50,487 nucleotides of DNA. It comes from a virus. Below are positions 14 through 50,487 of this stretch, piece by piece. Location of the stretch: the IMG/VR virus record IMGVR_UViG_3300021585_000002, positions 1 through 50,487 of that record. One strand, given 5' to 3'. Below the pieces are notes generated by a model, which saw only the letters and a program-made list of their open reading frames with translations, ran no database searches and had not been told where the DNA came from. The first letter of the stretch is position 1, and each line of letters opens with the position of its first letter. The position numbers were made by a program, and so were the translations under genes.

Positions 14-655
14 TCAGACTTCCTCTGCTGCTGCGATTTGGGATTCGAGGGCGAAGGTGTCGCCATCGGTGGGGCATGTCGGCAGGCCCAGCGCTGCCCA
101 CTTGGCCGAGAGGCGCACGGTGTAACCGCAGGCCGGACAGGTGGCCTTGAGCATGCGGGTGCTTTGGGTCTTCTTCACCCCGACATTCAGCGCTGCATGC
201 GGGTACGTGCCCAGGGTCTGCAAGACCTGGGCGTATTGCGCGGCGAAGTCTTCAGCACCAGCCACCATGCGCCAGTTGTCACCCGCGGGGCACAGTCCCA
301 GGTTTGCGGCTGCCTCTATGTAGGCGTTCGAGGTGTGCGACATGGCACCGGGTGCGGCATGGGCCAGGGCTCCCACCAGTTGCGCCAGCACCTGGGCCGG
401 GTCGGCCAGGGTGGGAGAGACCATGACCTCATGGGTCTGGTCTGCCGAGTCGGTGTCGGCCCAGCACTCGGCGAGGGTGCCGCTGCGGCTGAAGGTGGAA
501 GGCAGCCCGCAGGTTGCCCGGATGCGGGCGGGCAGGCTGAGACCATGCCCAGCGAACACTGGGCGAAGGGATGCGATGGCGGCTGTTAGCCAATCCTCAC
601 GGGTGGGGTGTGTCACTTTGCTTCTCTCCTGTTTCGTCTGGGCACCGTTGCCCAT
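14..655 (-). CDS. SprT-like zinc protein with a degenerate active site
   Basis: The 213-residue protein resembles phage SprT-like proteins, normally zinc metallopeptidase folds followed by a zinc ribbon. The middle part (residues 77-110) has the family pattern of a strand ending VSPTL, then a helix where active members carry HExxH. Here that position reads GALAH (95-99), so the first His and the catalytic Glu are gone and only His99 remains. The C-terminus has a ribbon-like CPACGYTVR (173-181) and Cys194; the expected fourth Cys is not seen (CPTD). The protein may have kept a DNA- or protein-binding role without proteolysis. It is the first visible gene of the leftward unit and faces away from the packaging genes. 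Family assignment is by pattern recognition only. Confidence 0.6.
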   Translation of the reverse strand: MGNGAQTKQERSKVTHPTREDWLTAAIASLRPVFAGHGLSLPARIRATCGLPSTFSRSGTLAECWADTDSADQTHEVMVSPTLADPAQVLAQLVGALAHAAPGAMSHTSNAYIEAAANLGLCPAGDNWRMVAGAEDFAAQYAQVLQTLGTYPHAALNVGVKKTQSTRMLKATCPACGYTVRLSAKWAALGLPTCPTDGDTFALESQIAAAEEV

Positions 656-681
656 CGCCCCATACGGGGAGCGCCAGTGTA

Positions 682-708
682 GTGCAAGTGTTTGAACGGG
701 TGCAAGTG
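682..708. repeat. Direct repeat GTGCAAGTG, two copies 18 bases apart
   Basis: Two exact 9-base copies lie at 682-690 and 700-708, just upstream of the leftward gene. They could be binding sites for a regulator or part of an origin. Two copies of a 9-mer at this distance may also be chance. Confidence 0.4.
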
Positions 709-758
709 CTATCGCTCAAGAGGGAAGTCCAGACGGGGCGCTCTAGACCACAAGTCAC

Positions 759-780
759 GTGCGCGTGATGTGCGCGTGAT
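759..780. repeat. Exact tandem 11-mer GTGCGCGTGAT, two copies
   Basis: GTGCGCGTGAT occurs twice without a gap (759-769 and 770-780). Eleven bases is about one helical turn, so two bound proteins would sit on the same face of DNA, as at iterons or paired operators. It lies 166 bases left of the DnaA boxes. Confidence 0.6.
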
Positions 781-945
781 GCGGGTACTACGTGAAGTTA
801 TCCCGAGTCAATATCAGGGGTCTTTCCTGTATGGATGGACATGCCTCTAAAAGCCACCAGAACGGCCCAGGATCGATTCGGGGTGGCACCATATGCCCTG
901 GTATCAAAAAAGAAAGATCGGAGCTTCTAGCGAGTTGTGCACAAG

Positions 946-1049
946 TTATCCACAGGTGCTTCATAGGTAATGCCTCATTTTTGAGCACAAACAAAGGCTT
1001 ATCCACAGGCTGTGGATAACTGCTTGCCAAATGAACAAGCTGTGGATAA
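946..1049. promoter_or_regulatory. Cluster of four perfect DnaA boxes
   Basis: The consensus DnaA box TTATCCACA occurs exactly at 946-954 and 999-1007 on the + strand and at 1011-1019 and 1041-1049 on the minus strand. The middle two form a perfect inverted pair around a 3-base spacer (999-1019). Four exact 9-mers within 104 bases is far beyond chance. A weaker match, TTATCCCGA, starts at 798. Known roles of such clusters are replication initiation and DnaA titration or regulation. Here they suggest dependence on host DnaA. Confidence 0.7.
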
Positions 1050-1132
1050 CATGCGAACGAATGCCACCAGCAGCAAGGGTGGCGATAGTGATCAAGGGGC
1101 GCAAAGCCCGAAGGGCGAGAACCGTGAGCAAT

Positions 1133-1765
1133 ATGACAGGCAAGGACTACATGCAAGCCCTGGACTCGGTGGGCCAGGACGACGGCGAGGCCGAAGACGT
1201 TTACACACTAGACGGCCCGGACACCTACAGCGAAGCGGAACAGATGGCGGATGCCGCAGAGGCACCAAAGATCAGAGGGGATGGACACGTAGTAGGGACT
1301 GCAGAGTGGAAAAGAACCAGACCACTAACGGCACAACAGCAGGCTTTCGCCCAAGGGGTCATCCAGGGGAAAAGCCTGCGTCAGGCGTATAGGGATGCAT
1401 ACCCCAACGCCCAGGCCAACGACCAATCAATCAGCGCCACCGCAGCGCGACTAATGAAGGATGAGCGGATCACCAAGCTAGTCCGGGAAGCCTGGGAGGA
1501 AACACAAGAGGCGTTGACGGATGACCCGCAGGCGATGCGAAGGCATGTGGTCAGGCAGTTGGTGGCACTCAGCAAGACGGCAGCACAAGAGGGCAGCCGC
1601 TTAAAGGCACTGGAGTTGCTGGGCCGCAGTGCAGGCATGTTCAGGGATGTGCAGCAGGCAGCAGACAAGCCTCTCACCGCAGCAGAGTTGAAGGCAGCAC
1701 TGAGCGGACACCTCAAGCTAGTGGGGCAGACGCAGCGTAAACGCACGGGCACAGATGATGCGTAA
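1133..1765 (+). CDS. terS: Terminase small subunit
   Basis: The 210-residue protein recognises the packaging site and hands viral DNA to the large subunit. Residues 65-121 match the helix-turn-helix region of small terminases: a stretch starting LTAQQQAFAQG, then SLRQAYRDAYP, then SATAARLMKDERI. The N-terminal 60 residues are acidic and probably disordered; the C-terminal half is helical and would support oligomers. The ATG at 1133 is chosen because earlier in-frame starts (ATG 1031, GTG 1124) would either include the DnaA boxes as coding sequence or rest on an equally weak ribosome binding site. GTG 1124 is a real alternative. TerL follows after two small genes, the usual order. Confidence 0.85.
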   Translation: MTGKDYMQALDSVGQDDGEAEDVYTLDGPDTYSEAEQMADAAEAPKIRGDGHVVGTAEWKRTRPLTAQQQAFAQGVIQGKSLRQAYRDAYPNAQANDQSISATAARLMKDERITKLVREAWEETQEALTDDPQAMRRHVVRQLVALSKTAAQEGSRLKALELLGRSAGMFRDVQQAADKPLTAAELKAALSGHLKLVGQTQRKRTGTDDA

Positions 1766-1964: not shown

Positions 1965-2189
1965 ATGGAAACGACCGTTTACACTGACATCATTGATTAT
2001 GCGATGCCGACCATGATGGCGGAGAGGGCGTTGAAGGAGTTGCACAACGCTGCTTTGAACAGAGAGTTTGACAAGGCGATTGAGTTTGCCTTGGAGGCGG
2101 CGATTCAATGCAGGATGGCAAGTTTTGCTTTGCGTGGAATGGCAGAAGAGGAGAGAAGGCGTGACAGACAGGTGGCAGTTGGTTCTTGA
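1965..2189 (+). CDS. Small hypothetical protein
   Basis: A 74-residue, mostly helical protein rich in Ala, Glu and Arg. It has no motif I recognise and no membrane segment. An AGAAAGA sequence about 11 bases before the ATG could serve as a weak ribosome binding site. Its 3' end overlaps the start of the LexA-like gene by 29 bases in another frame, which supports co-translation. Position between the two terminase genes suggests a packaging-related or regulatory accessory role, but nothing in the sequence shows it. Confidence 0.6.
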   Translation: METTVYTDIIDYAMPTMMAERALKELHNAALNREFDKAIEFALEAAIQCRMASFALRGMAEEERRRDRQVAVGS

Positions 2190-2391
2190 TTTCATCAAGG
2201 CTTACATCAAGAGGCATGGGGTATCGCCTTCTTATGAGGTGATGGCTAAGAGCTTGGGATTGAAATCAAAAGCAAACATGCACAGGATTGTGAAGAGGCT
2301 TGAGAAGGAGGGCCACCTCAAGGTGGCCCCTAGAAGGTTTTATGGTGTGAAGGTTGTGGACCGGTCTATTGATGAGGTGGTGAGTCTGTGA
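2161..2391 (+). CDS. LexA-type winged-helix DNA-binding protein
   Basis: The 76-residue protein looks like the LexA N-terminal DNA-binding domain alone: a first helix (VLDFIKAYIKRHG), the turn SPSYEVMAKSLG, a recognition segment LKSKANMHRIVKRLEKEG and a basic wing ending in FYGVKVV. There is no peptidase domain, so it cannot self-cleave as LexA does. The GTG at 2161 is chosen because GAGGAGAGAAGG lies directly upstream and the domain begins right after it; a longer frame from 2068 adds a sequence unlike the domain. It overlaps the previous gene by 29 bases and TerL by 4 (GTGA). It may regulate phage transcription or assist packaging-site recognition. Confidence 0.75.
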   Translation: MTDRWQLVLDFIKAYIKRHGVSPSYEVMAKSLGLKSKANMHRIVKRLEKEGHLKVAPRRFYGVKVVDRSIDEVVSL

Positions 2392-3887
2392 CGTTATTGT
2401 CAAAGCAGGAGATTGGGCAGTACCTTGCGGTTGTGGACAAGGTGCCTGAGGTTGAGCGGAACAAGATCTTTGCCTTGTTGGAGATGGACAGGGTTGAGAG
2501 GTGCCGGGAGAGCTTTTTGTTCTTTGTCAGGCAGATGTGGCCTGGGTTTATCTCTGGGCGGCATCATCAGATCATGGCAGAGGCTTTTGAGAGGGTTGCT
2601 GCTGGGGAGTTGAAGAGGTTGATCATCAACATGCCTCCCCGGCACACCAAGTCTGAGTTTGCTTCGTACCTGCTTCCTAGTTGGTTCTTGGGCAAGTTCC
2701 CTGAGAAAAAGATCATCCAGACCGCCCACACTGCAGAATTGGCAGTGGGTTTTGGCAGAAAAGTCAGGAATCTGGTTCAAAGTGAACAATATGCCAAGGT
2801 GTTTGACACAAAGCTGTCCAGCGACTCCAAAGCTGCTGGACGGTGGAACACCCACAAGGGTGGCGACTACTTCGCTATCGGTGTTGGTGGTGCTGTGACG
2901 GGTAAGGGTGCGGATCTGTTGATCATTGATGATCCGCATAGTGAGCAGGAGGCCAAGCAGGGCAATCCTGAGGTCTATGACGGGGTGTATGAGTGGTACA
3001 CCTCTGGTCCTCGGCAGCGTTTACAGCCTGGAGGGGCCATCATTGTTGTGATGACCCGCTGGTCCAAGAGAGATTTGGCTGGGCAGATCCTCAAAGGGGC
3101 AGAAAGAGACGGTTCTGATCAGTGGGAAGTCATTGAATTCCCTGCCATATTGCCCTCGGGCAACCCTCTTTGGCCTGGATTTTGGTCAAAAGAAGCTCTG
3201 GAATCGCTCAAAGCTGAGCTTCCGGTGGCGAAATGGGAGGCTCAGTACCAGCAAAACCCGATTTCTGAGGGTGGAGCCATTGTTAAGCGTGAACAGTGGC
3301 AGATTTGGGACCAAGAGACGCCTCCGCCGTGCGAATACATCATCCAAAGCTGGGATACCGCCTTTGAGAAGAACAATCGGGCCGACTTTTCCGCTTGTAC
3401 AACGTGGGGGGTGTTTGACCACCCCAATAAACACGGTGATTTGAGGCCAAACATCATCCTTTTGGATGCCTACAAGGCTCGTCTGGAGTTCCCGGAGCTT
3501 AAAAAGAAGGCATTTGAGATGTGGAAGGAGTGGGACCCTGACACGCTGATTGTGGAAAAGAGGGCAGCAGGTGCGCCTTTGATCTATGAGATGCGCAAGA
3601 TGGGAATCCCGCTTTCGGAGTACACACCGGGCAAGGGCAGCGATAAGATAGCCCGTGTAAATTCAATCGCAGACCTGTTTGCATCAGGGGTTGTGTGGTG
3701 CCCGGAGAAGAGATGGGCAGAAGAGGTCATGGAAGAGATGGCCTCCTTCCCAAATGGGGATCATGATGACCTTGTGGACTCGTCCAGTCAGGCTTTGATG
3801 AGGTTTAGACAGGGCGGCTTCATTGCAATTGATAGCGATGAGCAAGACGAACCGATGCAAAAGCGCCGGAACGCCTCCTATTACTGA
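2388..3887 (+). CDS. terL: Terminase large subunit
   Basis: This 499-residue motor and nuclease packages DNA into the prohead. The ATPase half shows Walker A PPRHTKSE (83-90) and Walker B LLIIDD (177-182), followed by a coupling region around VMTRW (221-225). The C-terminal RNase H-like nuclease has acidic residues in the expected order: SWD (Asp323), VEKRAAG (Glu390) and HDDLVD (Asp460, Asp461). The Walker A has Thr where Gly is more usual; this variant occurs in phage terminases. It starts with GTG at 2388, overlapping the upstream stop by 4 bases. Length and motifs are complete, so the gene is probably functional. Confidence 0.95.
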   Translation: MTLLSKQEIGQYLAVVDKVPEVERNKIFALLEMDRVERCRESFLFFVRQMWPGFISGRHHQIMAEAFERVAAGELKRLIINMPPRHTKSEFASYLLPSWFLGKFPEKKIIQTAHTAELAVGFGRKVRNLVQSEQYAKVFDTKLSSDSKAAGRWNTHKGGDYFAIGVGGAVTGKGADLLIIDDPHSEQEAKQGNPEVYDGVYEWYTSGPRQRLQPGGAIIVVMTRWSKRDLAGQILKGAERDGSDQWEVIEFPAILPSGNPLWPGFWSKEALESLKAELPVAKWEAQYQQNPISEGGAIVKREQWQIWDQETPPPCEYIIQSWDTAFEKNNRADFSACTTWGVFDHPNKHGDLRPNIILLDAYKARLEFPELKKKAFEMWKEWDPDTLIVEKRAAGAPLIYEMRKMGIPLSEYTPGKGSDKIARVNSIADLFASGVVWCPEKRWAEEVMEEMASFPNGDHDDLVDSSSQALMRFRQGGFIAIDSDEQDEPMQKRRNASYY

Positions 3888-31507: not shown

Positions 31508-32011
31508 ATGCTGTCCCTTCTCTCAACGCTTGGGGGCCTGCTCATCAGCGGCTTGCCGAAGCTGCTTGATTACTTCCAGAACCGCGCAGACCAGAAGCAC
31601 GAACTTGAACTTGCCCGCGTGCAGATCGAGCGGGAGTTGCAGCTTGCTGCCCAAGGTTTTGCTGCCCAGGCCCGCATGGAAGAGATCCGCACCGACCAGA
31701 TTGCCATGCAGACTGAGGCCAAGATGACCGAGGCTGCGCTCGACCATGACAAGAAGGTGCTGGAGAAGGCCAGCAAGTGGGTCGCCAGCTACGTGGGCAC
31801 CGTCAGGCCGACGGTCACGTACATCTTCATCCTTGAGCTTGTCGCCATTAACGCAGCCATCGCTTGGTATGCGTTTAATCAGCAGGGGTTGATCAACAAC
31901 GTGGATGACCTCATCCGCATCACTACGGTGATCTTCTCTGATGACGAGATGGCAATGCTTGGGGGTATACTAGGGTTTTGGTTTGGATCGCGTAGCTGGA
32001 GCAAGAAATGA
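31508..32011 (+). CDS. Holin, gene-transfer-agent 3TM type
   Basis: The 167-residue protein has a hydrophobic N-terminus (LLSTLGGLLISGLPKLLDYF), a long charged helix (30-95), a membrane segment about 97-121 (VRPTVTYIFILELVAINAA) and a C-terminal hydrophobic end with GFWFGSRSW. The VRP-T-Y...GFWFGSRSWSK pattern is that of the three-TM holin family named after gene transfer agents. It would permeabilise the inner membrane for the endolysin. AAGGAG precedes the ATG. The stop overlaps the start of the GIY-YIG gene by 4 bases. Confidence 0.75.
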   Translation: MLSLLSTLGGLLISGLPKLLDYFQNRADQKHELELARVQIERELQLAAQGFAAQARMEEIRTDQIAMQTEAKMTEAALDHDKKVLEKASKWVASYVGTVRPTVTYIFILELVAINAAIAWYAFNQQGLINNVDDLIRITTVIFSDDEMAMLGGILGFWFGSRSWSKK

Positions 32012-32493
32012 CTATTGGTTTGTACGCTGTTGTCAATAAACACAATGGCAGGGCGTACATTGGCAGCTCCACAAATGTTGAACTGCGAATGCGGCATCAC
32101 AAGTGCTACATCAATACAGGTCGGTTTTTGCACTATCAAGGCTACGCTGAAGACGCAAAGGCGTATGGCGTAGGCGGTTTTGACTTTAAGGTGATTTGCA
32201 AAACCGACTCAATTGAAGAGGCAAAAGAACTGGAGACTGCATTTCTTGAAATGTGGTTGAGTGACTTGTACAACAAGGCACCAAGCGCCAATGGTGCAAC
32301 TGGAGTCAAGCGCAAACGACATCTTTATGTCAAGGCGGCAGCAAAGCGTCTGGCTGACCCTGACTATCGGGCTAAACTTAGTGCGGCGTGTAAGGGCAAA
32401 AGGCAAGTATTGAAGTGCCCGCATTGCGAGGTTGAAGGCGGCGGCGGGAATATGCGCCGTTATCACTTTGACAAGTGTGGGAGCAAGAAGTGA
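32008..32493 (+). CDS. GIY-YIG endonuclease, probable homing type
   Basis: The 161-residue protein has the GIY-YIG nuclease core: GLY (4-6), YIGSS (17-21), then an Arg (27) and a catalytic-type Glu (near 76, in ELETAFLEMWL). The C-terminal part has a Cys/His zinc-binding candidate (C137, C140, H153, C157) and a basic KRLADPDYRAKLSAACKGKR resembling a nuclease-associated DNA-binding module. It is inserted between holin and endolysin, but with 4-base overlaps at both sides, unlike a recent insertion. It might cut DNA of competing phages, or act in the phage's own DNA handling. Confidence 0.8.
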   Translation: MTIGLYAVVNKHNGRAYIGSSTNVELRMRHHKCYINTGRFLHYQGYAEDAKAYGVGGFDFKVICKTDSIEEAKELETAFLEMWLSDLYNKAPSANGATGVKRKRHLYVKAAAKRLADPDYRAKLSAACKGKRQVLKCPHCEVEGGGGNMRRYHFDKCGSKK

Positions 32494-43695: not shown

Positions 43696-46600
43696 ATGGC
43701 TATTCGCATCCAGCTTTTTGATGGGTCGCTTCTTGAGTTCCCTGATAACACCCCTCAGGATGTTATTGATCGAGTAGCCAAGCAAGAAACACTGGCCCGT
43801 CAGCCCGCTCCGCAACCTCGACCTGTCATTGAGCCCCCTAAGAAAGAGGGGGTGATGGCTGCGTTTGGCAAAGGGCTAGAAAGCCTGCTGGGCTCTAGCC
43901 GCACTGCCGTTGGTGCGTTTACAGGATCTCCTGAAGAAGCTGCCCTGGCTGCTCTGGAGAGGCAGAAGCAGTCTCCCTACGCCGACCAAGTCAGCTTAGA
44001 GAAGGTCTCAGAGGCTGCTAAACGAGGCCTGCTGCCCGCCGCTGGTGAGGTCGCTAGGCAGGTGCCTCTGGCTATTGCTGAGCAGGCTCCGAACGTCCTG
44101 GCAACACTTGGTTCTGCCAAGGCTGGCTCTTTGCTTGGCGCAAAGCTGGGGACGGCTGTCGCGCCTGGAGTTGGCACAGTAGTTGGAGGTATCGGCGGTG
44201 GCATCTTGGGAGCGCTTACCCCGTCTTTGCTCCAGCAGTTTGGCGGGAACATCCAGCGTCAAGCCCAAGAGCAGCAAGCTCAAGGCAAGCCCATCGACAT
44301 CAGCAGGACATCAGCAGGCTTGGCTGCTGTGCCCCAGGCAGGTCTTGATGTTGCCGCATCCCTAATCCCACTGGGCAGGACGTTTGCTGGCAAGGTTCTA
44401 GGCCCGCAAGTTGAAGAACTGTTGAAACGCGGGTCAGTTGAGGGCGCAGAGCGTTTAGCTCGTGAGAGCCTGCCCACTGTGTTGGGCAAGGGTGCTGCGA
44501 TCAGCATCGCTACTGAAGTCCCGACCGAAGTTATCCAGACCATGCTTGAGCGCTCTCAGGCTGGTCTTGCCCTGACCACCCCGGATGCTTTGGCTGAGTA
44601 TGGCAATGTGGCATACCAAGCTGGTCTACTTGCGCCTATTGGTGCTGTGGGTCGTGTGGGTGAGCGTGCTGCAGCGCGGAGTGAAGCTCTTCTGCCCGGT
44701 CAACGCCGTGGTGAGTCCGATATGGACTTCGCCAACCGGCTGAGTCAAGAGATCGGGAATGATCGTGCTTATGTTGCAATGCAGCAAGCAGAGCAGGCAG
44801 AAGCCGCTAAGCGTCAAGCTGCACTGGAGCAGATGAAACAGGCCATCGGTGATGGCTTGCTGACGCCCGAGGTGGTTAAACAGTGGGGCTTTGGGAAAGG
44901 CTCCATCTTTGATTCCCTGGTCAACAAGAACCTGAGCAATCCTGAGGATGCGTCCTTTGTGGCCGATGTCTTGGCCGCGTACCGGCCTAAGGCTCACCCC
45001 AATACGCAGGTCAAGATTGATGATGCGCTGGCTGGCATTGAAGCCATGTTTGGTGCCAAGCCAACCTCGCAAACTGAAGGAGCAGCAGATGTTGGAACGG
45101 CTATCACCGAACCAAGTGGAGCGGGCGTTCAAGTGGCTGGCGAGCCCAGTGCAGGAGCCACCACCCCAAGACTTGGAGCCCCTGAACCAGCAGGAGTGGT
45201 TCCTCCTGTCGAGGATGCTAGACAACCTGCTGGAGGAGCAGAAGCAGCACCGCCTGCAGTAGCTCCGCCTCTTGCGCTGCCTGCGCCTGTTGAGCCTGAA
45301 GTAGTTACTCCTGCCGCAGAAGCCGTCACGCCGCCAACAGAGCCGGTTGTTGAAACGCCTGCTGCTGAGAAGCCCGTTGAAGCGCCGGCTGCTCAGAAAC
45401 CTGCTGTTGAGTTGCCCAAGTCATTGCAGGATATGTCTCCTGCAAACAGGCAGTTGTATGAGCTTGATCGCAACATAGAAGAAGCGAAGACTCCTGCATC
45501 TGGTATTGACTGGGAAATCAAGGACACGCTTGCCCCAGAAGAGAGGGGCATGACATTTGAAAGCGCGACCGACCAGCTTAACTCGTACTTGGCTGGCATC
45601 AAAGATCTTGACGGTAAGCTACGCAGTGGCAACAGGACTGGCTCCACCCCAGGTCGTTTGATTGAGATGTGGAAAAACGCTTCGCAAACGCAGGCGTTTA
45701 TAGAGCAGCAGAAACAACAGAAACCCGAGCTTTGGGCGAACTATCAAGCTCGTCAAGCTGATGTTGCCAATCTCAAGGAGGGTGATGCAGTTATCACGCC
45801 CAATGGCGAACAAGCCATCCTTGATAAGAAGTTCCCAAAGAACTGGCGAGTTAAGCTCCCCAATGAAGAGATGCGGCTGTACCCGCCAACCAGCTTTAGA
45901 CGCGCAGAGCCTGCCGCTAAGCTATCGGCAGCACAGATCCCCAAGTACAAGATTGTTCAAACGCAAGTCGAGGGTTTGGACGGCAAGATCAAACGCGCCT
46001 GGAATGTTGTTGATGCCAAGGACGACTACATACAAGACACGTTTGATACGCGGGCAGAAGCTCAAGACTGGGTCCGTGGCGTAAAGGAAAGAGCAGCCAA
46101 GCCATCACTGGCTGAAGAAGCCAAGCCGCTGCCCATCACACCCGAGATACAGGAAAAGATTGATCAACTTGAGAAGGTTCTCAAGAAGATCATGAACAAG
46201 TACGGCCTGAAGGATGTTGCCCTCAAGCTGATCGACAACATGAAGGCAGAAGGCGAGTACGCACAGAGCGTGGTTCGTCTGGCCCTGGATGCTGTAAACC
46301 CGGTGCAGGCCTTGAGGCATGAGTCCATCCATGCTCTGAAGGAACTGGGCTTCTTCTCTCCACAACAATGGGCAGCACTTGAAAAGCAAGCCAAGAGCAA
46401 GTGGATTGATCAGTACCTTAAGACCAAGAACATCAACAAGGAAGACCTAGAGGAGGGCCAGAAGTCCCGCTATGACGCATACATGGAGCTTTACAAGGGC
46501 GACATGGACGCGATCATTGAAGAGGCAATTGCTGATGCCTTTGGGGACTTTGATGTAAACAAGGCTCCTCCGGGCCTGATGCAAGCCATCCTGACCCGGC

Positions 46601-49600
46601 TGCGTAACTTCTTTGATGCGGTCAAGACTGCCTTTGGTGGTGAAGTCACCGCAGAGCAAGTGTTCCGTAAGGTTGAGAAGGGTGCTCTGAAGGCGGAGGC
46701 TAAGGCAGAAGCTGCCCCGGCTAAACAAAGTTTGCGTGAAGTTCCTCTGTCCACTCGTGGGTTGATGGAAGTTCAGCCCATCGTAGCGATGCAGGAGCTT
46801 GGGCTCAAAACAGATGCTGTCCGCAAGCCGGGTGGCATTGAGTTGTTTAACGATGTCCGCTCCATCGCTCTTGCACTTAATCAAGACACCATCCGAAACA
46901 AGGGCAAGATCGCCAAGACCGATACCTCATTGACCTCGGAAAAAGAACTTGCGAGGGCAATGGTTGATGAGATTGGCTACCAGCTAAAAGCAACTGCAGG
47001 GACCGGCACTGGCAAAGGTTGGTACTCGGACAACTATCCCAAGGCAGTTAAGAAGCTGGGCAAGCTGTTCCCAGAGCTTGAGACAGATCCATATGCCAGA
47101 ACTGTTTTCTCTGCATTGGTTGCTATTACCTCCAATGGCGAGAAAGTATCTCTCAACGTAAAGAACGCCATTAAGCTCTACGAAGACATTCGTATGGGCA
47201 AAGACCCGCGTAATATTGGTTCTCGCCGCAAAACTGCACTGGATAATAACATTGCAGTTGTCATGCAGCTAATGAAGCAATATGGTCCCACTGGAATGCG
47301 CAATGAATTATTGCGTGAGATTACAGTTAAGGACATGAACGCTATCCTGCGTTCACGCGGAGAAAAGCCCGATACCTCTTATCTTGCGGATACCAAAGTA
47401 CCTGCTGCGGCATTGTATTTCGGGCCAAAGCTAGGCGCATTCTTCTCCAATCTTGAAGGCGCAGAGGGCTATCTGACGATGGATATGTGGTGGACCCGGA
47501 CGGTTAACCGCATGCGTGGGCAGTTGGAATCAAAGGCCACCGAAGCGTCCATCAAGAAGTTTGCCGCGATGATGGATAAGCCAAATGCCACCCGAGATGA
47601 GGTGGTGGCGGCAACCATCCCGCTGCGTAACAAATATGAAGAGTTTGGCTGGCACACTGAACTAGAAGAGTTAGTGGGCCGCAAAGAGCCAGCAGAAGAT
47701 AAGGACAAGCCAGCCTGGACGGCAAGGGCGAAGCGTCAAGCTGGCCCCGCATATGAAGCTCTCTTGTTTGAACATCGTCTTGAGAAGATGGCTAACACCA
47801 TCTACAAGAACGAGTATGAGTTGCTGGAAGAGGCTCCGTTTACATCCACCGACCGAGAGTTCATGTACCGCACGGCTAGGCGGACTCAGAGCCTGCTCAA
47901 GGCCGAAGGCATTAACCTGTCACTAGCAGACATCCAGGCCGCTCTCTGGTACTACGAGAAGCGTCTGTATCAACATTTGAGTGGAAGGAAAGCAGATGAC
48001 ATCGGATACGACGAAGCCATCACCCAACTCGCAGGGGAAAGTACTCGACCCGCAGGACCCTCTGTGGTCTTCGCTGGACAACCTGTTTCTGGGGCTGGAG
48101 CCACAGGAGCGGGCGCAGCAGTTGCTGGAGTTAGTGCGCAGCCTGTCCAGCTAAAGCCAAGCCTGCGTGAAAAAGCATCCTGGGATGACAAGCGCATTGA
48201 GCGTTTAATTGATCAATACGGCTACACCGATGGGCGTACCTACGGTATTGCTGCGTATGTAAACCCGGAAGAGTTTGTCCGCGCAACCACTCCGTCCAAA
48301 GAGTTTGCCGATGAACTCAAGGCAGAGGCTGGGGCACTTGACCGCGATCAGATAGCCAAAGAAACTCAAACGCCATTCTTGGAATGGGACATTGAGAAGG
48401 GCGTCATCGTTGGTCATGAAGGCAGGCATCGTATGTCTGCGCTTTCTGCTGAAGGTGTTGAGTCTGCCCCGGTCGTGCTGTACGTCAAGGATCGGTATGG
48501 CTCTAAAAAGCCGGATCAGTATGAGCGCCAGGATTCTGTATCCATCAAGGGGCAGAAATTCCAAGACGGTGTTGGCAGACCTCTGACGGCCACCAACCTG
48601 ATTCCACTTGAGTACAGGCAGGCCAAGTCACTGAGAGAAGAATTTGCCGCAGCGGCTGGTGTTAAGTACAGCCTGCGCGTAAACATCCCGGCAAGCGCAC
48701 GCGCACGGGTTGTTGCCACTATTGCCTCCCGTCAAGAGAAGGGCTTTGTTGAGCGCCTCATGGAGGCGATCTCTCCAACGTCCTACTCCGACTTCCGTGC
48801 CCAGGCTCTGAACCGCTACAACCAGCTTGGTGTTTACGACAAGATCCGCGCCAAGAAGATGGGTGGTGCTGCGCTGCTTGCTGATTCCAGCGCTGAGTCT
48901 GCTGCCCTGCTGTCTGACCTGGGTGCTGGTCTAACCGCTTCCGCGCTGGGTGTGCATGACCGGATGGGTGGCATTCCTGTGTTCAGGAACGGTATCACCA
49001 TCATCAGCAACCAAAACGGCACGATCAAAGGCCCGACCGCGATCTTTGCCCCGTTGGCTGCTGATCCGGCTCATTATCAGGACTATCAGTTCTGGGCTGG
49101 CGTGAAGCGTGGTTCGCGCTACATGCAAAACCCACAAGGCAAGTACGAAGAGAAACTGTTTACACCATCAGACGTCAAAGAGGCGGAAGTAATTCGCAAG
49201 GCATACCTCAAGGCGGGGATTGACTTTGAGGCCATGCAAAAGGAGTGGATCAAGTACAACGACGGTCTCGTCCAGTACATGGTCGATACCGGCGTGCTCT
49301 CACAGGAGCGTGCTGACCTGTACCGTAAACACGCAGACTATCTGCCCTTCTATCGGCAGATGGACGGCAGAGAGACCATTGGCCCGAAGGTTTTCCAAGC
49401 CATCTCTGGTGTCAAGCCGCCTAAAGCCGCTAAGGGTGGAGAGGCCCTGCTTGATGACTTTTTAGAAAACATTGTCCGCAACACTCAGTCTGCGATCCAG
49501 GCTGGCGTCAAGAATGTCGCAGCCCAAAGAGCCGCCAAGGTGGCTATGGACATCGGCATGGCATCGCGGCTGGGCTTCAAGTCCTCCGCAGCCGGAACCT

Positions 49601-50487
49601 TTGATGTTCTGGAGAACGGTCAGGTTGTCACGTACCAATCAAAGGATGAGCTTTTCATCAACGCCATCAAGAGCCTTGGTATTCCTGACCTGCCGTTTAT
49701 AGGACTGTTGTCTGGCCCCGCGAACTTGCTTCGCAATCTGGTAACCAAAGACCCAGGCTTCATGCTTGCCAACCTGATGCGTGACTCAATGTCCGCATGG
49801 GTTACCTCCGGCGTGAAGATGACCCCGATGGTAAACACCTTCACCAACTTTGGTGCTGCTATCGCAGGCAAAGACCCGGCCTTCCAAGCTCTGATGAACG
49901 CAGGCATTTTGGGTGGCTATGAGTTCTCGCAGAACGTGGAGCAGAGCGGGCGTGAGTTCGGCAAGGCTCTGAGGAAGCAAGCCAAGATCAAGTCCACCGG
50001 GCTCAAGGGCGCAGCAGAGATGGGCGCTAAGCCGTTTACATCTCTGTGGGATGCGCTGGAGAAAGGTTCCACTGCATCTGACGCAGCCACTCGGATGGAG
50101 GTCTACAAGCGCACGCTGGCCGAGACCAACAACGAAGCAGAGGCTCTGTTTAGAGCGCTTGAGGTGATGAACTTCAACCGTAAAGGATCTTCTGCTGTCG
50201 TAAGAATTCTTACCGCTGCGGTGCCGTTCTTAAACGCACGCATGCAGGGCCTGGATGTTCTGTACCGCGCAGCTTCGGGGCAGATGAACGCTCGTGATGC
50301 AGCGCAGATCCAGAAGCAGTTCTTTGTGCGCGGCGCAATGATTGCATCCTTGTCTGCCGCTTACTGGCTGCTGACGCATGACGATGAGGAATACAAGAAG
50401 CAGGAGCAGGAGACAAGAGACAACTACTGGCTTCTTCCTTCGCTGGGCGTCAAGATCCCGATCCCCTTTGAAATCGGTGTGTTGTTC
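43696..50487 (+). CDS. Giant polyvalent-like protein, incomplete at the window end
   Basis: The open frame runs without stop for 2264 codons to the last base. It starts MAIRIQLFDGSLLEFPD, an N-terminal pattern of phage virion proteins. Residues about 105-235 are Ala/Gly-rich with hydrophobic stretches. A metallopeptidase-like site HESIH (875-879) is followed 63 residues later by EEAIADAF (942-949), a plausible third-ligand element. A second region near 1259-1275 (YLTMDMWWTRTVNRMRG) and the segment GHEGRHRMSAL (1573-1583) recall domains of phage polyvalent proteins; the latter may be ParB-like. The region 1756-2040, including ADLYRKHADYLPFYR (near 1876) and DPGFMLANLMRDSMSAW (2019-2035), resembles LPD38-type polyvalent-associated sequence. 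Polyvalent proteins are delivered with phage DNA to counter host defences. Domain names are from memory and need a profile search. Confidence 0.7.
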   Translation, partial: MAIRIQLFDGSLLEFPDNTPQDVIDRVAKQETLARQPAPQPRPVIEPPKKEGVMAAFGKGLESLLGSSRTAVGAFTGSPEEAALAALERQKQSPYADQVSLEKVSEAAKRGLLPAAGEVARQVPLAIAEQAPNVLATLGSAKAGSLLGAKLGTAVAPGVGTVVGGIGGGILGALTPSLLQQFGGNIQRQAQEQQAQGKPIDISRTSAGLAAVPQAGLDVAASLIPLGRTFAGKVLGPQVEELLKRGSVEGAERLARESLPTVLGKGAAISIATEVPTEVIQTMLERSQAGLALTTPDALAEYGNVAYQAGLLAPIGAVGRVGERAAARSEALLPGQRRGESDMDFANRLSQEIGNDRAYVAMQQAEQAEAAKRQAALEQMKQAIGDGLLTPEVVKQWGFGKGSIFDSLVNKNLSNPEDASFVADVLAAYRPKAHPNTQVKIDDALAGIEAMFGAKPTSQTEGAADVGTAITEPSGAGVQVAGEPSAGATTPRLGAPEPAGVVPPVEDARQPAGGAEAAPPAVAPPLALPAPVEPEVVTPAAEAVTPPTEPVVETPAAEKPVEAPAAQKPAVELPKSLQDMSPANRQLYELDRNIEEAKTPASGIDWEIKDTLAPEERGMTFESATDQLNSYLAGIKDLDGKLRSGNRTGSTPGRLIEMWKNASQTQAFIEQQKQQKPELWANYQARQADVANLKEGDAVITPNGEQAILDKKFPKNWRVKLPNEEMRLYPPTSFRRAEPAAKLSAAQIPKYKIVQTQVEGLDGKIKRAWNVVDAKDDYIQDTFDTRAEAQDWVRGVKERAAKPSLAEEAKPLPITPEIQEKIDQLEKVLKKIMNKYGLKDVALKLIDNMKAEGEYAQSVVRLALDAVNPVQALRHESIHALKELGFFSPQQWAALEKQAKSKWIDQYLKTKNINKEDLEEGQKSRYDAYMELYKGDMDAIIEEAIADAFGDFDVNKAPPGLMQAILTRLRNFFDAVKTAFGGEVTAEQVFRKVEKGALKAEAKAEAAPAKQSLREVPLSTRGLMEVQPIVAMQELGLKTDAVRKPGGIELFNDVRSIALALNQDTIRNKGKIAKTDTSLTSEKELARAMVDEIGYQLKATAGTGTGKGWYSDNYPKAVKKLGKLFPELETDPYARTVFSALVAITSNGEKVSLNVKNAIKLYEDIRMGKDPRNIGSRRKTALDNNIAVVMQLMKQYGPTGMRNELLREITVKDMNAILRSRGEKPDTSYLADTKVPAAALYFGPKLGAFFSNLEGAEGYLTMDMWWTRTVNRMRGQLESKATEASIKKFAAMMDKPNATRDEVVAATIPLRNKYEEFGWHTELEELVGRKEPAEDKDKPAWTARAKRQAGPAYEALLFEHRLEKMANTIYKNEYELLEEAPFTSTDREFMYRTARRTQSLLKAEGINLSLADIQAALWYYEKRLYQHLSGRKADDIGYDEAITQLAGESTRPAGPSVVFAGQPVSGAGATGAGAAVAGVSAQPVQLKPSLREKASWDDKRIERLIDQYGYTDGRTYGIAAYVNPEEFVRATTPSKEFADELKAEAGALDRDQIAKETQTPFLEWDIEKGVIVGHEGRHRMSALSAEGVESAPVVLYVKDRYGSKKPDQYERQDSVSIKGQKFQDGVGRPLTATNLIPLEYRQAKSLREEFAAAAGVKYSLRVNIPASARARVVATIASRQEKGFVERLMEAISPTSYSDFRAQALNRYNQLGVYDKIRAKKMGGAALLADSSAESAALLSDLGAGLTASALGVHDRMGGIPVFRNGITIISNQNGTIKGPTAIFAPLAADPAHYQDYQFWAGVKRGSRYMQNPQGKYEEKLFTPSDVKEAEVIRKAYLKAGIDFEAMQKEWIKYNDGLVQYMVDTGVLSQERADLYRKHADYLPFYRQMDGRETIGPKVFQAISGVKPPKAAKGGEALLDDFLENIVRNTQSAIQAGVKNVAAQRAAKVAMDIGMASRLGFKSSAAGTFDVLENGQVVTYQSKDELFINAIKSLGIPDLPFIGLLSGPANLLRNLVTKDPGFMLANLMRDSMSAWVTSGVKMTPMVNTFTNFGAAIAGKDPAFQALMNAGILGGYEFSQNVEQSGREFGKALRKQAKIKSTGLKGAAEMGAKPFTSLWDALEKGSTASDAATRMEVYKRTLAETNNEAEALFRALEVMNFNRKGSSAVVRILTAAVPFLNARMQGLDVLYRAASGQMNARDAAQIQKQFFVRGAMIASLSAAYWLLTHDDEEYKKQEQETRDNYWLLPSLGVKIPIPFEIGVLF

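Follow-up and report, generated by a model that had tools for sequence, protein, structure and literature searches.

DnaA acts as a repressor or an activator at bacterial promoters, and nrdAB is described as being under dual control (PMC8203912). At E. coli uvrB, DnaA and LexA both repress, and an overlapping pair of DnaA and LexA boxes is located at uvrBp3 (PMC6015884). Promoters of alphaproteobacterial phages are controlled by the host regulator CtrA, which is described as 'lytic deferment' (PMC9437464), and a description of the injection stop signal of phage T5 mentions DnaA boxes and repeats within it (PMC13250531).

The locus described here is a cluster of DnaA boxes upstream of the terminase small subunit gene, terS, in a phage contig of 50,487 nucleotides (IMG/VR record IMGVR_UViG_3300021585_000002), the whole of which is called the window. 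It resembles uvrB, as described in PMC6015884, in that DnaA and LexA boxes occur on one promoter region and partly overlap. Unlike that chromosomal repair gene, a phage packaging operon is concerned here, with several exact boxes and a LexA-like gene in the operon, and the window itself is without LexA-type sites at this promoter. As in the CtrA-regulated phages, sites of a host cell-cycle regulator are concentrated in phage intergenic promoters, but the regulator there is CtrA, and DnaA sites are given as lacking positional asymmetry in the phages of PMC9437464. At lambda pR/pO and ori-lambda, phage DNA is bound by host DnaA, with an effect on transcription (PMC3985674), although DnaA acts around the replication origin in lambda and the present boxes are at a terminase promoter. 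A cluster of consensus boxes that is able to titrate DnaA is likewise found at E. coli datA, a chromosomal titration locus, whereas the boxes here are on a phage promoter (PMC5835720). DnaA boxes have also been reported in Pseudomonas phage PseuGes_254, in an origin predicted by Ori-Finder (PMC11512268); this is a software prediction for one phage, and the passage that reports it does not mention clade-wide conservation, whereas the boxes here are conserved clade-wide. Among the literature matches listed, which covered few subscription journals, no title or abstract described DnaA boxes on a terminase promoter.

The DnaA box cluster in the gap upstream of terS

The gap that contains the boxes is bordered by a leftward SprT-like ORF (14-655, minus strand; phrog_6361, PHROG match E 1.5e-29) and by the rightward terS (1124-1765, plus strand; phrog_51, E 7e-12). 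Homologues of the SprT-like ORF are annotated as 'SprT-like protease' in phage records, and a Pfam search with it gave no match. The likely start of terS, placed by alignment of relatives, is GTG at 1124 or ATG at 1133, and the ORF as listed begins at 1031. Rightward, terS is followed by an ORF for a 76-residue protein consisting solely of a LexA DNA-binding domain (2161-2391, plus strand; PF01726, E 2.4e-11), by the terminase large subunit gene terL (2388-3887, plus strand; phrog_38, E 3.4e-108), and then by portal, capsid and tail genes. The left side in relatives contains AAA and VWA genes and a Toprim-DnaB primase-helicase, to which relative G004 then adds SSAP, exonuclease and RusA genes. 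The right end of the window lies inside a giant open frame (43696-50487, 2,264 residues, open rightward) that matches a protein of 2,615 residues in relative G001; the contig is therefore incomplete, with most of the early region missing. In the early region of G004 (L097/L098), one ORF encodes the C-terminal domain of ribosomal protein L7/L12 (PF00542, E 4.4e-7), and at 32008-32493 of the window a homing-endonuclease-like ORF (PHROG matches including the GIY-YIG type) overlaps the start of the endolysin ORF. Among 20 genome matches, a single Burkholderiales metagenome bin (L115, terL 83%) was near the clade, and this bin assignment is a weak hint of a Burkholderiales host.

Four exact TTATCCACA DnaA boxes were found within 104 bases (946-1049). 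Boxes 1 (946-954) and 2 (999-1007) are on the plus strand, boxes 3 (1011-1019) and 4 (1041-1049) are on the minus strand, and the window contains no other exact box. Shuffled windows contained a mean of 0.31 and a maximum of 2 exact boxes, with at least four in 0/100 shuffles, and the relaxed pattern TTWTNCACA added just two scattered single sites across the window. The inverted pair formed by boxes 2 and 3 (999-1019) is a perfect palindrome with arms of 10 bp and a spacer of 1 nt. Both the four perfect boxes and the inverted pair, which had been proposed from the sequence-only reading of this DNA, were borne out. Boxes 1, 2 and 4 were invariant in 13/13 aligned relatives and box 3 was kept in 12/13, the exception (L033) having TTGTCCACA. 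A weak DnaA-like box, TTGTGCACA (935-943, plus strand), starts 11 nt 5' of box 1 and reads TTGTTCACA in several relatives. The AT-richest 40-mer near the boxes (963-1002, 65% AT) covers the spacer of boxes 1 and 2 and is a possible unwinding region; 0.98% of the sampled 40-mers of the window were equally AT-rich, which places it in the top 1%, though not as an extreme. Host DnaA very probably binds the boxes. No phage DnaA C-terminal domain (DnaA_C) was found in 11 clade contigs including the window, several of them fragmentary, so a phage-encoded DnaA was rejected and the host protein would have to act on the boxes.

The sequence-only reading had also compared the region, with its boxes and two repeats, to iteron/DnaA-box origins, and both repeats are present. 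The 9-mer GTGCAAGTG (682-690 and 700-708), recovered by the repeat search, is doubled and probably incidental, and the 11-mer GTGCGCGTGAT (759-769 and 770-780), read directly from the sequence and absent from the repeat-search listing, is an exact tandem. The comparison itself failed, since there are two copies only and, in an alignment read by eye, the exact 11-mer tandem was seen in just 4 of 13 relatives (the window, L004, L006 and L009); for the 9-mer, the aligned stretches of most relatives begin after 682-708. An iteron origin was therefore ruled out, the repeats being two-copy and without conservation, as was a plasmid relative, because positions 656-1300 gave no plasmid match. Rep, ParA and DnaA_C families were not among the domain matches, which in G004 covered 41 ORFs rather than all.

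Conservation of the boxes and their link to the predicted terS promoter

A search with TerL gathered 80 relatives. Counting the window, 39 loci extended 1,900 bases or more upstream, L016 being left out as it is cut inside terL, and these loci formed 22 non-redundant groups by shared 12-mers (the first set). Two further scans gave 66 loci; after removal of 7 that resembled the first set, 37 groups were obtained (the second set). An exact box was found in the gap before terS in 21/22 group representatives of the first set (at least two boxes in 20/22; L053 is without an exact box and L037 has one), and a box in 36/37 groups of the second set (at least two in 31/37), which amounts to strong conservation in related genomes, although the loci are metagenomic and the groups share ancestry, so that the events are not independent. 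The gap regions of the first set contained 68 boxes in 28,161 bases versus 0 in 116,321 bases downstream of terL (68 versus 4 with other region boundaries), and those of the second set contained 90 boxes versus 1 in 178 kb downstream. Among one-mismatch variants TTGTCCACA alone was abundant (21 sites), and this variant also belongs to known DnaA-box sets. Relative G004 has terL at one end of its contig and terS with the boxes at the other, a layout like that of a permuted whole genome, and contains exactly four boxes, all beside terS.

Outside the clade, sister phages had 8 boxes over 80 loci and no pair within 300 nt, and four isolate stretches of the outgroup contained no exact box. At least two boxes within 300 nt were found in 4/61 loci of DSL-LC04-type phages (L231, L237, L260 and L269). 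The box cluster is a property of the window's clade, with a separate occurrence in DSL-LC04-type phages. In the latter, the boxes are ~11-32 bp apart in AT-rich DNA (for example L231:7890-7970), the cluster of L231 is directly 5' of an ArdC-like antirestriction gene (PF08401, PF18818), and the clusters look more origin-like than that of the window.

A consensus scan of 600-1200 yielded a single promoter-like site of sigma70 type, TTGCCA-17-TAACAT (1024-1052, rightward, plus strand), as a sequence prediction from approximate matrices. Its -35 element is TTGCCA (1024-1029; p=0.03 versus shuffles) and its -10 element is TAACAT (1047-1052), after which comes a conserved GCGAAC close to where transcription is expected to start (about 1059). 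Box 3 precedes the predicted -35, with its end 4 nt from that element, and box 4 overlaps the predicted -10. The best promoter scores exceeded those of shuffles in many groups in the rightward direction and not in the leftward direction. That a box precedes the -35 was originally seen by eye in the first set, and the second set was then tested by the same rule. Allowing up to one mismatch, a box ended 0-6 nt before the -35 in 16/23 groups of the first set plus L115 (3.4 expected by sliding), and in 11/37 groups of the second set (5.4 expected, p 0.013; leftward control 6/37). The link between box and -35 is replicated in the second set, more weakly.

Many promoters of the second set appear to carry a box on the -10 instead. 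The GCGAAC anchor was found in 40/60 groups, the other 20 not being scored, and by hand count of rows a box ended 1-4 nt before the anchor, and so at the -10, in 19 of these 40, with a distance of 28-36 nt seen in 21. No box covers the -10 in the promoters of L017, L036, L047 and L067, which means that occlusion cannot account for repression in every case. Relatives differ freely in how many boxes they have and in the order and orientation of these, yet the boxes keep their link to the terS promoter and remain beside terS where the SprT-like gene is ~1-3 kb away (L036, L043, L057, L063 and L081). No general rule for the spacing between a box and TTGACA emerged in viruses, as spacings were broadly spread among the viral-contig matches listed.

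LexA-type sites were often located close by. A LexA-domain homologue lies between terS and terL in 59/60 groups versus 0/145 outgroup loci searched. Close to the last box there were 49 sites for CTGT-N8-ACAG, allowing up to one mismatch, versus 2.3 expected, 15 of them exact, and a spacer of 8 was far above the nine others tested, the next highest giving 23. By hand count of rows, with groups lacking a loose box skipped, such an operator is present in 28 of the 60 groups listed, about half. At the terS promoter of the window itself there is none within one mismatch, and the sole nearby site is at 827-842.

Two further arrangements were seen in relatives. Upstream of terS in L068, L057, L073, L078 and L081, one box group seems, as read by eye, to be flanked by inverted repeats, of the types TGCAATGA-n-AAAGTATT and AATACT-n-TTTCATTGCA in this subclade. 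Extra exact boxes are located just 5' of or inside the LexA-like gene region of L018 (-311/-300), L017 (-298) and L067 (-100, all relative to terL).

Two features expected of a DnaA-regulated promoter are found, since boxes abut or overlap the predicted core elements in the window and the arrangement is conserved among relatives. We consider it slightly better than an even prospect that the cluster controls the terS - lexA-like gene - terL operon through a DnaA-responsive late or packaging promoter.

A possible replication origin and other explanations

Another explanation is a DnaA-dependent phage origin, at which host DnaA would melt the AT-rich spacer and the Toprim-DnaB primase-helicase and host polymerase would take over; we regard it as possible but rather doubtful. 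Such an origin is consistent with the cluster of perfect, high-affinity boxes, a feature of oriC and oriR, with the two boxes facing inward from each side in the window, and with the presence near the boxes of some of each locus's AT-richest 40-mers. Iterons with a cognate initiator gene were not found. Neither DNA polymerase A nor Pol III alpha was detected in the 11 clade contigs including the window, several of which are fragmentary, so the host replisome is probably needed, which also suits an origin; yet sister phages likewise show no polymerase A and have no box clusters. The GC-skew minimum is 9.3-10.6 kb left of the site in three of four contigs (G001, G003 and G004), which argues against an origin, and 0.9 kb from the box in the fourth (G002), which argues for one. 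The codon-position-3 skew gave no clean replichore signal with crude ORF picking that included antisense ORFs. A nearby initiator or replication gene, as an origin implies, was not seen, the primase-helicase being ~7-8 kb to the left (6.7-8 kb in all four contigs). Of the candidate origin put forward in the sequence-only reading, the boxes stood and proved conserved, and the iterons, the adjacent replication gene and, outside G002, the skew did not; that reading had named absence of conservation, together with a skew minimum and replication genes elsewhere, as evidence against an origin, and conservation is strong while the other two lie elsewhere in most contigs.

The idea that loss of a phage polymerase explains the boxes was rejected, because the boxless sister phages G013, G014 and G015 (54-58 kb), G019 and bin G022 also show no polymerase A. 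It fails as well with L231, L237, L260 and L269, which have clusters though the DSL-LC04 type carries polymerase A.

The retention of the boxes beside terS despite a distant SprT-like gene is not what an origin predicts. Given the skew, the distance to the primase-helicase and the free rearrangement of boxes with a persistent promoter link, we favour the late promoter over the origin, and the two readings are compatible. The boxes would more probably link the timing of late gene expression to the state of the host than simply serve as an origin.

The boxes could also be a pure sink that only titrates host DnaA and halts host initiation, like E. coli datA. Each genome carries several exact boxes of high affinity, the total rising with phage copy number; this and the tolerance of irregular box spacing agree with a sink, but a sink would be free in position in principle, whereas the boxes hug one promoter and stay with terS, and we judge a pure sink improbable. 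Less probable still is a site for a phage protein or a packaging signal, in which TerS or the LexA-like protein would recognise the 9-mer and its identity with the DnaA box would be coincidental. The LexA-like gene co-occurs with the boxes and terS adjoins them; however, 9/9 positions agree with the DnaA consensus, and the boxes are non-palindromic and occur in either orientation, whereas the LexA-type sites expected are CTGT-N8-ACAG palindromes. A DNA-entry pause signal resembling the injection stop signal has its precedent in T5, as described in PMC13250531, but is very improbable for boxes at an internal promoter between gene blocks.

A putative DnaA-responsive promoter for packaging genes

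If the cluster is a DnaA-responsive late promoter, DnaA probably represses it, as box 4 covers the predicted -10 in the window and host DnaA bound there would block it. Alternatively, box 3, which directly precedes the -35, could have an activating effect when occupancy is low, as has been reported for nrdAB. With genome multiplication, each copy would add four high-affinity boxes and free host DnaA would drop; the late promoter would then open, and packaging would be coupled to genome copy number. The boxes may also titrate DnaA, and host initiation would thereby be denied DnaA as well. The cluster might additionally act as a replication start site. A second input in many relatives could come from the LexA-type operators, through either host LexA or the phage-encoded LexA-like protein.

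In its most specific form, which we put forward only tentatively, this would be a copy-number timer. DnaA would repress the terminase or late promoter, packaging would begin once genome copies outnumber the host DnaA supply, and host initiation would be choked simultaneously, while the LexA-type operator and the phage LexA-domain protein would provide a DNA-damage input in many relatives.

The arrangement of exact boxes, predicted promoter, often LexA-type operators and a LexA-domain gene spans dozens of environmental phage groups. If the proposed control is true, these phages would read the host replication state via DnaA at a packaging promoter, alongside the phages that sense CtrA. The lytic programme would then be tied to the host cell cycle, and the boxes would provide a simple counting of phage genome copies.
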